Assembly (NCBI RefSeq): GCF_024198235.1
Contig: NZ_JAKCFB010000014.1
Coordinates: 62,001 to 126,000, forward strand
Length of the DNA stretch: 64,000 nucleotides
From: Myxococcus dinghuensis
GTDB lineage: Bacteria > Myxococcota > Myxococcia > Myxococcales > Myxococcaceae
Direction of reading: 5' to 3'
Of this stretch, positions 2 through 4,685 are shown piece after piece. Each line of letters opens with the position of its first letter. Positions within the stretch are counted from its first letter, which is position 1. The notes beneath the pieces are model-generated. The model ran no database searches. It was not told the DNA's origin and worked only from the letters and a program-made list of their open reading frames with translations. The position numbers and the translations under genes are program-made.

Positions 2-2065
2 CTGGACTCGCTGGCGACGCTCGGCTACCCCGGCATGGGGTACGGCATCCGCTACGAGTTCGGCATCTTCACGCAGGACATCGTGGACGGCTACCAGGTG
101 GAGCGCGCCGACGAGTGGCTCAAGTTCGGCAACCCGTGGGAGATCGTCCGGCCGGAGAAGGCGGTGCCGGTGCGCTTCTTCGGGCGGGTGGAGCACCACC
201 AGGGGCCTGACGGCAAGCCCGTGGCGCGCTGGGTGGGCGGCAAGACGGTGGTGGGCGTGCCGTACGACACCCCCATCGCCGGCTACCACAACGACACCGT
301 CAACACCCTGCGGCTGTGGCAGGCGCGCGCGTCCGAGGAGTTCGACCTGCTGCTGTTCAACGCGGGCGACTACGAGCGCTCCGTGGTGGAGAAGAACGAC
401 TCGGAGGTCATCTCCAAGGTCCTCTACCCCAACGACGCCTTCCAGGCCGGCAAGGAGCTGCGGCTCAAGCAGCAGTACTTCTTCGTCGCCTGCTCCATCG
501 CGGACATCGTCCGGCGCTACCTGAAGAACCACACCGACTTCAGGGACTTCCCCAACAAGGCGGCCATCCAGCTCAACGACACGCACCCGGCCATCGGCGT
601 GGCGGAGCTGATGCGCGTGCTGGTGGACGAGCGGCGGCTGACCTGGGACGAGGCGTGGTCCGTCACCCAGGGCGTGTTCGGCTACACCAACCACACGCTC
701 CTGGCGGAGGCGATGGAGAAGTGGCCGGTGACGCTGTTCGAGCGGCTGCTGCCCCGGCACCTGGAAATCATCTACGAAATCAACACGCGCTTCCTGCGCC
801 AGGTGCAGATCCGCTACCCGTACGACCAGGAGAAGCTGCGGCGGATGAGCCTGGTGGAGGAGGGCGCGGAGAAGAAGATCCGCATGGCGCACCTGGCGGT
901 GGTGGGCAGCCACAGCGTCAACGGCGTGGCCGCGCTGCACACGGACCTGTTGCGCCGGGACGTGCTGCCGGACTTCGCGTCCATGTATCCGGAGCGTTTC
1001 AACAACAAGACCAACGGCGTGACGCCGCGCCGGTGGCTGGCGTGGTGCAACCCGCGGCTGTCCAAGCTCATCACCTCGCGCATCGGCGAGGGGTGGGCCA
1101 CGGACCTGGACAAGCTGCGGGAGCTGGAGCCGCACGCGGAGGACCCGGCGTTCCGCCAGGCGTTCCGCGAGGTGAAGCGCGCCAACAAGGAGGACCTGTC
1201 CCGGCACATCCAGGACCTGCGCTGGGTGCAGCTCAATCCGGACGCCATCTTCGACGTGCAGATCAAGCGCCTGCACGAGTACAAGCGGCAGTTGCTCGAC
1301 GCGGTGCACATCGTCGCGCTGTGGATGCGGGCGCGCCGAGACCCGAGCACCATCGTCCACCCGCGCGCGTTCATCTTCGGCGCCAAGGCCGCGCCGGGCT
1401 ACCACCTGGCGAAGCTGACCATCCGGCTCATCAACGGCATCGCGGAGGTGGTCAACAGCGACGCGGGCACCACGGGGTTGCAGGTGGTGTTCGCGCCCAA
1501 CTACCGGGTGAGCCTGGCCGAGCGCATCATCCCCGCGGCGGACGTGTCCGAGCAGATCTCCACGGCGGGCATGGAGGCCTCCGGCACGGGCAACATGAAG
1601 CTGATGCTCAACGGCGCGCTGACGCTGGGCACGCTGGACGGCGCCAACGTGGAGATTCGCGACGCGGTGGGCGACGAGAACTTCTTCCTCTTCGGCCTCA
1701 CCGCGGACGAGGTCATCGCGCGCAAGCGCGCCGGCTACCGGCCGCGCGAGGAGTACCAGCAGAACCAGGAGCTGCGCGAGGCGCTGGACCTCATCTCCAC
1801 CGGCTTCTTCTCCCCGGAGGACAAGAACCTCTACAAGCCCCTGGTGGACAGCCTCCTCGACGAGGACCGCTACCTGGTGCTGGCGGACTTCGCGTCGTAC
1901 GCGGCGAAGCAGGACGAGGTGGTGCGCGCCTACCAGGACGCCGACGGCTGGACGCGCAAGTGCATCATCAACGTGGCCCGCGCCGGCATCTTCTCCTCCG
2001 ACCGCACCATCAAGCAGTACGCCGAGGAGATCTGGCGCATCCAGCACACCGCCGTGGAGCCCTGA
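2..2065 (+). CDS. glgP: glycogen/alpha-glucan phosphorylase (C-terminal part)
   Basis: Releases glucose-1-phosphate from glycogen or maltodextrins using pyridoxal phosphate; cytoplasmic. The reading frame is open from the first bases of the window (LDSLATLGYPG before the first Met), so the start lies upstream and 687 residues are visible; whole enzymes are usually about 810-840. Family hallmarks are YGIRYEFGIF near the start, the KRLHEYKRQ block near residue 420, and the PLP-site signature EASGTGNMKLMLNGAL near residue 525, which contains the PLP-binding Lys. Everything from the substrate-binding loops to the C-terminus looks intact. The substrate (glycogen or maltodextrin) cannot be told from sequence alone. 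Confidence 0.96.
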   Translation: MDSLATLGYPGMGYGIRYEFGIFTQDIVDGYQVERADEWLKFGNPWEIVRPEKAVPVRFFGRVEHHQGPDGKPVARWVGGKTVVGVPYDTPIAGYHNDTVNTLRLWQARASEEFDLLLFNAGDYERSVVEKNDSEVISKVLYPNDAFQAGKELRLKQQYFFVACSIADIVRRYLKNHTDFRDFPNKAAIQLNDTHPAIGVAELMRVLVDERRLTWDEAWSVTQGVFGYTNHTLLAEAMEKWPVTLFERLLPRHLEIIYEINTRFLRQVQIRYPYDQEKLRRMSLVEEGAEKKIRMAHLAVVGSHSVNGVAALHTDLLRRDVLPDFASMYPERFNNKTNGVTPRRWLAWCNPRLSKLITSRIGEGWATDLDKLRELEPHAEDPAFRQAFREVKRANKEDLSRHIQDLRWVQLNPDAIFDVQIKRLHEYKRQLLDAVHIVALWMRARRDPSTIVHPRAFIFGAKAAPGYHLAKLTIRLINGIAEVVNSDAGTTGLQVVFAPNYRVSLAERIIPAADVSEQISTAGMEASGTGNMKLMLNGALTLGTLDGANVEIRDAVGDENFFLFGLTADEVIARKRAGYRPREEYQQNQELREALDLISTGFFSPEDKNLYKPLVDSLLDEDRYLVLADFASYAAKQDEVVRAYQDADGWTRKCIINVARAGIFSSDRTIKQYAEEIWRIQHTAVEP

Positions 2066-2434: not shown

Positions 2435-3544
2435 ATGAAGCAACAGCCACTGTCCCTGGCCGTCCTGGCCCTGGTCGTCGCGGGTATTTCGCCCTCCGCC
2501 ATGGCGGCCGCGGAGCGCACCACCTATCCCGTCGTCTTCGCGCACGGGCTCGGCGGCTTCGACAACATCCTCGGGTATGACTACTGGGGAGATGATTTCG
2601 GTGTGTTCGTCGGCGACCCGTGCAACGAGTTCCTCGAGATCACGTGCAACAGCGGCATCGACGTGAACCAGCGCTCGTTCGTGGCCGCGGTCCAGCCGCT
2701 GCATGACTCGGACGTCCGTGGGCTGCAGCTGGCCAACGAAATCGAGGGCTACATGGCGACCGCGGGGACGAAGTACGTGAACCTCGTGGGCCACTCGCAG
2801 GGCGGCATCGACGCGCGCAAGGCGGCGCGGGTGCTGCGCGAGCGCAAGGGCTACACGGTGGTGAAGTCGCTGGTGAGCGTGTCGTCTCCGCACCGCGGCT
2901 CGCCGGTGGCCAAGTTCATCCTCGACCTGGGGCCGGGGGTCACCAGCGTGCTGGACGCGCTGTTCCGCATCTACGGCGACGTGGTGTACGGGCCGGGCAA
3001 CGACGCCTATGCGTCCGTGAAGTCGCTCGTCTACAACGACTACGACGCCAACGACGGCAAGGCGACGGGCGCCAAGCGCTTCAACACCAACTACAACATC
3101 AGCGCCAGCTACGCGTCGAACTACGCCTCTCTGATGACGGCGCAGAGCGGCCTGAGCGTCAACCCGGCGCTGTACCTGCTGCGCGGCTTCTATTTCGACA
3201 TCGACGGTGACGGCTACTGCGTGGACGACTGCGACAACGACGGCGCGGCCGGCAAGGGCAACGGCGTGCGCACGGGCAACGACGACGACGGCCTGGTGGG
3301 CATCAACTCCCAGCAGATGGGCTACCGCCTGCGTTACACGGAGCGGCTGGGCCTGGACCTGGTCTCCGTCGACTCCGCGCTGGGCTACGTGTCCGACATC
3401 AACGCGCCCAACGCCTCGCAGATGACGTCCTCCTCCAGCCTCATCAACCAGGACCACCTGGACGTCATCGGCCTGGGGCCCGACACGTTCAGCGAGATGG
3501 AGTTCTACGCGGCCATCTTCGACTACATCGCGAAGAACGACTGA
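2435..3544 (+). CDS. secreted triacylglycerol lipase (Pseudomonas family I type)
   Basis: Extracellular lipase hydrolysing long-chain acylglycerols. The Met at 2435 follows AAGGAG and gives a clean Sec signal peptide (MKQQPLSLAVLALVVAG..AMAAA) on a 369-residue protein; an upstream in-frame GTG would only add an Arg-rich stretch. Visible features are the oxyanion-hole segment VVFAHGLGGFDN (34-44), nucleophile Ser121 in GHSQGG, catalytic Asp285 in NDDDGLVG (family motif NDGLV) and catalytic His341 in NQDHLD. Just before the Asp lies an Asp/Gly-rich segment (255-285, with DIDGDG and DCDNDG) that looks like a calcium-binding insert, with Cys262 and Cys266 inside it. The next gene encodes its probable foldase. 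Lipase assignment is firm; substrate range is unknown. Confidence 0.92.
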   Translation: MKQQPLSLAVLALVVAGISPSAMAAAERTTYPVVFAHGLGGFDNILGYDYWGDDFGVFVGDPCNEFLEITCNSGIDVNQRSFVAAVQPLHDSDVRGLQLANEIEGYMATAGTKYVNLVGHSQGGIDARKAARVLRERKGYTVVKSLVSVSSPHRGSPVAKFILDLGPGVTSVLDALFRIYGDVVYGPGNDAYASVKSLVYNDYDANDGKATGAKRFNTNYNISASYASNYASLMTAQSGLSVNPALYLLRGFYFDIDGDGYCVDDCDNDGAAGKGNGVRTGNDDDGLVGINSQQMGYRLRYTERLGLDLVSVDSALGYVSDINAPNASQMTSSSSLINQDHLDVIGLGPDTFSEMEFYAAIFDYIAKND

Positions 3545-3564
3545 GCCCCCATCCAGCCGTCGTC

Positions 3565-3590
3565 GGGGAAGGGCCCTCTCGGCCCTCCCC
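3565..3590 (+). terminator. hairpin between lipase and foldase genes
   Basis: GGGGAAGGGCC (3565-3575), loop CTCTC, then GGCCCTCCCC (3581-3590): a 10-base-pair stem with one bulge, 20 bases after the lipase stop and 14 bases before the foldase ribosome-binding site. It could act as a partial terminator or mRNA stabiliser so that more lipase than foldase is made. No T-run follows. Confidence 0.35.
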
Positions 3591-3614
3591 TCTCTGAAGC
3601 CCCAGGAGGTCGTC

Positions 3615-4685
3615 ATGCGACAGCGCACCCAGGTCTTGTTGGCGGGAGGAGGCATCCTCCTGCTGCTCGGTGCACTCGCGCTCCTGGGGCGCACCGGGAC
3701 GCAGGCGGCGGCCGCGAGGGCCACCGAGGCGCGAGCCGCGACGCCCGCGGCCGGCGCCGTGGCCCCGGTGGCGCCCGCCCCCACGCAGGTCGCCGCCGTC
3801 GGGGCGCCCGCGCCCTCCGCCGTGGCGGAGCCGACGCAGGACGCGGAGCTGGAGGCGCTGGCCGCCTCGCTGCGCGAGAAGTACGGGGCGAAGCTGGACG
3901 AGCCCTACATCCAGATACGCATGCTGGAGGAGCTGATGCGCTACTTCCAGCAGCGGTATCCGGACCGCTGGCGGGAGGAGCTGCTCGCGTTCCTGAAGCG
4001 GGCCTTCCCGGAGCGCTACGACGCCCTCGAGGCGATGCTGCGCAACCGCGTGGACTACGAGAAGTGGGTGCGCGACAACGAGCCATACCTGCGCGGACTG
4101 ACGGACGCCCAGCGGCGGGCGGCGACCTGGGACGCGCGCAACCGGCTCTTCGGCAAGGAGGCGGCGGAGCGCATCTGGGCGGGGGAGCTGCGCAACCAGG
4201 CCATGGCGGACACGCTGCGGACGCTGGACGCGACGGATGGCGCGCTGGAGCAGAAGCTCTCCACGTACAAGCAGCGCATCCAGGAGATTCACGGCGAGAA
4301 CGCGGACGCGTACCTCGCCCGCCACCAGCAGGAGGCGATGGACCGATTCCTGGACCTGGGCACCATCCAGGCGGAGCTGGGGGCCATGTCCCCCCAGGAG
4401 CGCTCGCGCAGCCTGCGCACCGTGCGCCGGGAGATGGGCCTGGACGACGAGGCGCTGAAGCGTTGGGACACCCTGGACCAGAACCGGGATGCCCGCTGGG
4501 ACGCGGGCGCGCGCTACATGACCGAGCGACAGGCCGCGAGCCAGGAGCTGTCCGGCGAGGCGCTGGAGGCGAAGCTCGCGGAGCTGCGCACCCGCTACTT
4601 CGGAGCCGAGGCGGACACCATCGCCCAGGAGGAGGCCAGCGGGTTCCTGCGCTTCGAGCGCCCCCGCCAGTGGGGACGCAACTGA
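3615..4685 (+). CDS. divergent lipase-specific foldase (Lif-like), membrane-anchored
   Basis: Probably folds the preceding lipase in the periplasm before its export. AGGAGG sits 5 bases before the ATG. The 356 residues begin with a single N-terminal membrane anchor (about 7-25), then an Ala/Pro-rich linker (30-75), then an all-helical region. This region shows the Lif landmarks: a YxxYxxE-like start of the extended helical arm, R..LFGKEAAERIWAGE near residue 180, a long Arg/Gln/Glu-rich helix, and a final RYFGAEADTIAQEE segment matching the family end motif. The RxxFDY motif of the first mini-domain of Pseudomonas/Burkholderia foldases is not visible, and that domain seems reduced. Position directly after a family I lipase strongly supports the role. 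Alternative: an unrelated coiled-coil membrane protein. Confidence 0.75.
   Translation: MRQRTQVLLAGGGILLLLGALALLGRTGTQAAAARATEARAATPAAGAVAPVAPAPTQVAAVGAPAPSAVAEPTQDAELEALAASLREKYGAKLDEPYIQIRMLEELMRYFQQRYPDRWREELLAFLKRAFPERYDALEAMLRNRVDYEKWVRDNEPYLRGLTDAQRRAATWDARNRLFGKEAAERIWAGELRNQAMADTLRTLDATDGALEQKLSTYKQRIQEIHGENADAYLARHQQEAMDRFLDLGTIQAELGAMSPQERSRSLRTVRREMGLDDEALKRWDTLDQNRDARWDAGARYMTERQAASQELSGEALEAKLAELRTRYFGAEADTIAQEEASGFLRFERPRQWGRN

Follow-up and report, generated by a model that had tools for sequence, protein, structure and literature searches.

The closest described systems are the classical foldases Lif, LipB and LipH (PF03280), with structures from B. glumae (2es4), A. baumannii (9g8u) and the P. 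aeruginosa MD1 (5ovm). In Pseudomonas the MD1 is a three-helix bundle; the MD1 motif RXXFDY(F/C)L(S/T)A has been described as a conserved feature of every foldase family, with loss of activity on mutation (PMC7046727). In the known complexes the MD1 is centred on the C-terminal helix of the lipase, and the more stable grip on the N-terminal part comes from the EHD and MD2 (PMC13381987). Classical foldases are also present in the same bacterial family and phylum as the locus reported here (L042-L056, L108-L122); they have the same lipase-then-foldase order, keep R..[FL]F[DNS]YYLSA, are partnered by classical GHSHGG lipases, and some of them share genomes with the divergent type described below. 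Acinetobacter CpaB can be likened by description, being membrane-anchored and dedicated to one T2SS client (PMC4713064), although its client is a metalloprotease and not a lipase. Among the papers searched, none on myxobacterial lipase-foldase pairs of the present type was found.

The pair analyzed here lies in the window, i.e. the whole stretch of 64,000 nucleotides of Myxococcus dinghuensis DNA that was studied. The foldase has in common with classical Lif a membrane anchor, a low-complexity linker, the helical order MD1-arm-MD2 and a neighbouring lipase gene, and the sequence similarity of its type to classical Lif runs over the arm and MD2. It differs in having ExL[MV]RxF and not RxxFDY, in an extra N-terminal MD1 helix which replaces an extended segment, in staying below the Pfam cut-off, and in a partner lipase with an anionic C-terminal helix and a long insertion. 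From the sequences, their conservation, the fold match and the co-occurrence in genomes we infer a chaperone activity, and we consider it quite probable that the foldase is a membrane-anchored steric chaperone dedicated to this lipase, belonging to a deeply diverged Lif lineage without RxxFDY in which the contact of the first domain seems to have been rewired.

Features of the locus

The features of the locus are assembled in Table 1. The earlier note had described a lipase and a membrane-anchored helical protein encoded 70 bases apart, and both open reading frames were found as described. The intergenic hairpin may set the ratio of lipase to foldase; G+C-rich hairpins of differing sequence were seen between the two genes in many, not all, of the paired loci (L007, L012, L016, L018, L026, L028, L058, L062).

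Table 1. Coordinates of the lipase-foldase locus and its features (positions in the window)
Feature	Position	Strand	Remarks
Glycogen phosphorylase gene	35-2065		Precedes lipase gene
Lipase gene	2435-3544	+	369 aa, N-terminal signal sequence, divergent family I type
Predicted catalytic Ser121 codon (GHSQGG)	2795-2797	+	Sequence, alignment to 1ex9
D-rich, Ca-binding-like lipase insertion with two Cys, DIDGDGYCVDDCDNDGAAGKGNG	3182-3280		Conserved across lipase family, absent in classical lipases
Lipase C-terminus past catalytic His, DHLDVIGLGPDTFSEMEFYAAIFDYIAKND	3455-3544	+	Anionic helix, predicted to face foldase first domain
Intergenic hairpin, G+C-rich, without T run	3565-3590	+	RNA fold of intergenic stretch
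Ribosome-binding site AGGAGG of foldase gene	3604-3609	+	Strong site by sequence; precedes foldase ATG
Foldase-like gene	3615-4685	+	356 aa, starts 70 bases past lipase
Predicted membrane anchor, about residues 8-25	3636-3689	+	Hydrophobic run seen by inspection; same position across 39 orthologues
Disordered linker rich in Ala and Pro, residues 26-73	3690-3833	+	Low pLDDT; poorly conserved
First helical domain (MD1 equivalent), residues 75-154, four helices	3837-4076	+	AF2 models
Motif E105-E-L-M-R-Y-F111	3927-3947	+	Family ExL[MV]RxF, in place of RxxFDYF
Extended helical arm (EHD equivalent), about residues 156-257	4080-4385	+	AF2; PF03280 hits in orthologues
Second helical domain (MD2 equivalent), about residues 260-345	4392-4649	+	AF2; profile alignment to classical foldases

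Relation of the second protein to Lif foldases

The window foldase has no significant match to PF03280 (Lipase_chap), and its match to the NCBIfam lipase-chaperone model is collinear and sub-threshold (E 1.5, residues 173-336 on 168-324). At E 0.01 PF03280 matches 10 of the 39 window-type members. When 145 genomes of the order were scanned at the curated cut-off of 25.7 bits, more than a dozen orthologous loci exceeded this value or attained it together with in-frame neighbours (G115, G117, G082 and G084 are examples). The profile check which the earlier note had proposed thus gives a divided answer, the window protein alone falling below the cut-off but several of its orthologues lying above it.

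The fold comparison agrees with a relationship to Lif. When the foldase model was compared with the PDB by Foldseek, the first two matches were the two chains of the B. glumae foldase 2es4 (probability 0.99, E 0.054). The VIA ranking placed 2es4 first (Z 8.9, 222 residues) and 9g8u, the A. baumannii LipB, second (Z 8.7, 228 residues), with the next unrelated chain at 6.2, and these values are to be read with the caveat that Z below 13 may be chance for helical folds. These two were the only full-length Lif structures found among the ranked chains; their matches cover foldase residues 70-353 with moderate scores and rmsd of 6.8-7.5 A. A profile of the chaperone domain aligned collinearly with the classical foldases at a score of 32.9, against 19.8 or less in 40 column shuffles and 14.2 in the reversed control. 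A PDB profile search with the alignment of the foldase family gave chance matches only. When the MD1 was searched alone by fold, neither 5ovm (the Pseudomonas MD1) nor any other foldase was among 80 ranked chains; the MD1 region falls within the whole-chain fold alignment, and its homology to the classical MD1 is unproven.

The claim of a divergent Lif relative is therefore borne out by the orthologues that pass PF03280, by the fold match to 2es4 and 9g8u and by a profile alignment above shuffled controls. It is on these three lines, and not on the LFG.EA words of the earlier note, that the assignment rests. The window foldase combines a predicted anchor and variable linker, a helical MD1-arm-MD2 fold and a LipA-type lipase partner, as Lif proteins do, and it is a real and conserved, and probably a functional, variant of the Lif steric chaperones. 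On its sequence it is set apart from the classical members, as the defining motif RxxFDY is absent, and it was not filed as a classical Lif for this reason.

Foldase architecture and the replacement motif

The AlphaFold2 model, for which 39 orthologues were the input, has a pLDDT of about 90 or more at residues 81-350 and of less than 50 at residues 1-72. The MD1 helices are predicted at residues 75-93, 97-114, 119-130 and 132-154, the last three corresponding in their order to the MD1 bundle of Pseudomonas and the first one being additional. The first domain predicted alone is a compact bundle with a pLDDT of 94. A reduced first domain, which the earlier note had offered as one possibility, is contradicted by these models, since the domain is predicted as a full-sized and complete helical bundle both within the whole chain and alone. 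The MD2 equivalent contains the stretches LDQNRDARW and YMTER, and the PF03280 hits in orthologues span the arm and MD2 regions.

RxxFDY, strict or relaxed, is absent from the window foldase and its 38 aligned orthologues (0/39), in agreement with what had been noticed for the window protein. In its place all 39 window-type foldases have ExL[MV]RxF, in which E105, L107, R109 and F111 never vary; position 110 holds Tyr, Phe or His in 38 of them. The two motifs were set in register on the basis of an MD1-only profile alignment (weak, E 0.33), a whole-domain profile alignment and the helix pattern; this pairs E105 with Arg, M108 with Phe, R109 with Asp, Y110 with Tyr and F111 with the aromatic that follows, and it keeps the core positions named for the Pseudomonas MD1 (I93, F97, F100; PMC7046727). 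This register of E105xxM108R109Y110F111 on RxxFDYF is likely, and it is not taken as established because the MD1 alone failed to retrieve 5ovm. Within it ExL[MV]RxF is apparently a charge-swapped counterpart, in which Arg and Asp have become Glu and Arg. The likeness to RxxFDY that careful alignment brings out is hence partial: the aromatic at the Tyr position is retained, but the two charged residues are replaced.

Two other readings of the first domain were set aside. The register R102xxE105, with RMLEEL on RxxFDY, is less likely, as the invariant E105 would occupy the core Phe position and the profile alignment picked E105 on Arg. The PF03280 range (about 26-190) was considered as a sign of a missing MD1; in classical proteins the model begins about 40 residues past the motif, so that the range of the hit is uninformative on the motif.

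The lipase and its C-terminal helix

The best PDB match of the lipase is P. aeruginosa LipA (1ex9, E 2.4e-19, 28-306 aligned), its Pfam matches are alpha/beta-hydrolase, and it contains the GHSQGG nucleophile, NDDDGLVG and DHLD motifs. It appears by these features to be a LipA-type lipase of family I, an alpha/beta hydrolase with GxSxG, Asp and His. The earlier assignment to family I stands with the correction that the enzyme is divergent, with a long insertion and a longer segment before the His, about 45 extra residues lying between acid and histidine in comparison with classical lipases.

The net charge of the last 20 residues is -4 in the window lipase and -3 to -6 in the lipases paired with a window-type foldase, against +2 to +4 in 27 classical lipases taken from the same bacterial family. 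For the first MD1 helix the mean net charge is -1.5 in classical foldases vs +0.3 in the window type. A matched charge reversal between the C-terminal helix of the lipase and the foldase MD1 is suggested by these values; it is only suggestive because the paired lipases have a higher acidity over their whole length (body charge -18 in window-type lipases vs -2 in classical ones). Part of the difference in the helix may reflect this general acidity, though it is larger per residue.

Distribution of the pair in genomes

The co-occurrence was counted from strong matches in 145 genomes of the order, the units being genomes and not independent events. The window-type foldase is present in 46 of the 145 genomes, each of which also has the lipase family; the lipase family is present in the same 46 genomes and in one more (G093), whose contig ends inside the lipase. 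The two genes are adjacent in 37 of the 46. In the other nine genomes (G100, G103, G106, G107, G115-G119) the foldase has no neighbouring lipase and stands after the glycogen phosphorylase gene, while a lipase of the family is located elsewhere. A tblastn search of the loci tested found no lipase remnants beside the unlinked foldases, and no foldase was found beside the distant family lipases in the loci read (L098, L102, L107). One clade (L032-L035, L071-L074) has kept the foldase gene without a neighbouring lipase.

The unlinked foldases retain ExL[MV]RxF, and their median dN/dS of 0.26, vs 0.19-0.46 in the paired groups, indicates purifying selection. With the motif kept, the dN/dS low and the lipase elsewhere in the genome, these sequences fit an unlinked foldase that would act on its distant lipase in trans.

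Proposed mechanism and alternative explanations

In the proposed mechanism the lipase and foldase would both cross via the Sec pathway, and the N-terminal helix of the foldase would retain it in the inner membrane. The flexible linker would then present the helix crescent of MD1, arm and MD2, which is expected to wrap the lipase in the periplasm and, as the Pseudomonas and Burkholderia foldases do, to drive it to its active fold ahead of export. The MD1 helix equivalent to the RxxFDY helix would bear the invariant ExL[MV]RxF, with Arg/Asp exchanged for Glu/Arg, and the lipase helix which it touches would have switched its sign too, from cationic to anionic. The earlier note had offered a different contact as one of its alternatives, and this alternative fits best, as the invariant motif lies in the equivalent helix and the lipase helix is oppositely charged; the contact itself we infer from this pairing.

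It may also be that the foldase acts via MD2 and the arm only, with the MD1 as a structural cap, RxxFDY dispensable for this lipase and ExLMRxF packing the bundle. HDX of P. aeruginosa LipH, in which the EHD and MD2 contacts are stable and those of MD1 transient (PMC13381987), would suit such a division of work, as would a short paralogue type without MD1 in five genomes and the resemblance of F111, L107 and M108 to core residues. We regard it as unlikely, since all 39 members have the polar residues E105 and R109, a constancy beyond the needs of packing, the MD1 is of full length and confidently predicted, and the short paralogues adjoin a different hydrolase. A partner in secretion or retention (membrane tether, T2SS adaptor or lipase inhibitor) which has the Lif fold and does not fold the lipase has a precedent in Acinetobacter CpaB, a membrane-bound T2SS chaperone of a protease for which a wider class was proposed (PMC4713064); the homology here is directly to Lif proteins, and the lipase is of the LipA type, the known client class of Lif, which makes such a role quite improbable. 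An unrelated helical protein that resembles Lif through a widespread arrangement of helices would accord with the modest fold scores, the rmsd of the matches and the Z warning, but it is hardly credible when the two full-length Lif structures that were found head the ranking, orthologues independently pass the PF03280 cut-off, and gene neighbourhood and co-occurrence agree with Lif.

In the rewired lineage preferred here RxxFDY would have been replaced in nature by an invariant and oppositely charged motif. Together with the oppositely charged client helix this lineage offers a direct test between a contact that coevolves with the client and a universal mechanism.

Other Lif-like genes and additional lipase copies

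In relatives within the Myxococcaceae, 17 loci (L079-L095) have Lif-like genes beside a gene for an EEP-fold protein (17/17), the Lif-like gene lying within about 34 bases upstream wherever measured. These Lif-like proteins match PF03280 above the cut-off (E 8e-9 to 5e-13) and, like the window foldase, are without RxxFDY; their neighbour is Exo_endo_phos/sphingomyelinase-like and not a lipase, with a signal peptide, an Exo_endo_phos match at E 1e-4 and a weak sphingomyelinase match. A plasmid search for this type gave no match. They are possible steric chaperones for a non-lipase client. In a further group (L066-L070) short Lif-like proteins of 247-250 aa without MD1 are encoded beside an SGNH hydrolase (5/5). 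Their second half aligns to the MD2 region of the window foldase, their genes begin two bases downstream of the SGNH/GDSL hydrolase gene, and the hydrolase has a signal or lipoprotein-like leader.

The adjacency of Lif-like genes to EEP-fold and SGNH genes suggests client switching, and if these neighbours are true clients, such steric chaperones extend beyond lipases. We put forward tentatively, and with more doubt than confidence, that the Myxococcaceae diversified Lif into dedicated foldases, namely a charge-swapped lipase type (acting in trans in nine genomes), an EEP-fold type and an MD1-less SGNH type; on this view RxxFDY would serve as a contact specific to the client and would not be universal to the folding mechanism.

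A second lipase of the same family, 65% identical, is present in the genome of the window (G000:C61:53815-54891, L097). No foldase was seen beside this copy, and as it is unaccompanied, one foldase may serve two lipases in this genome. Tandem copies of the lipase were found in other genomes (L099, L100, L101).
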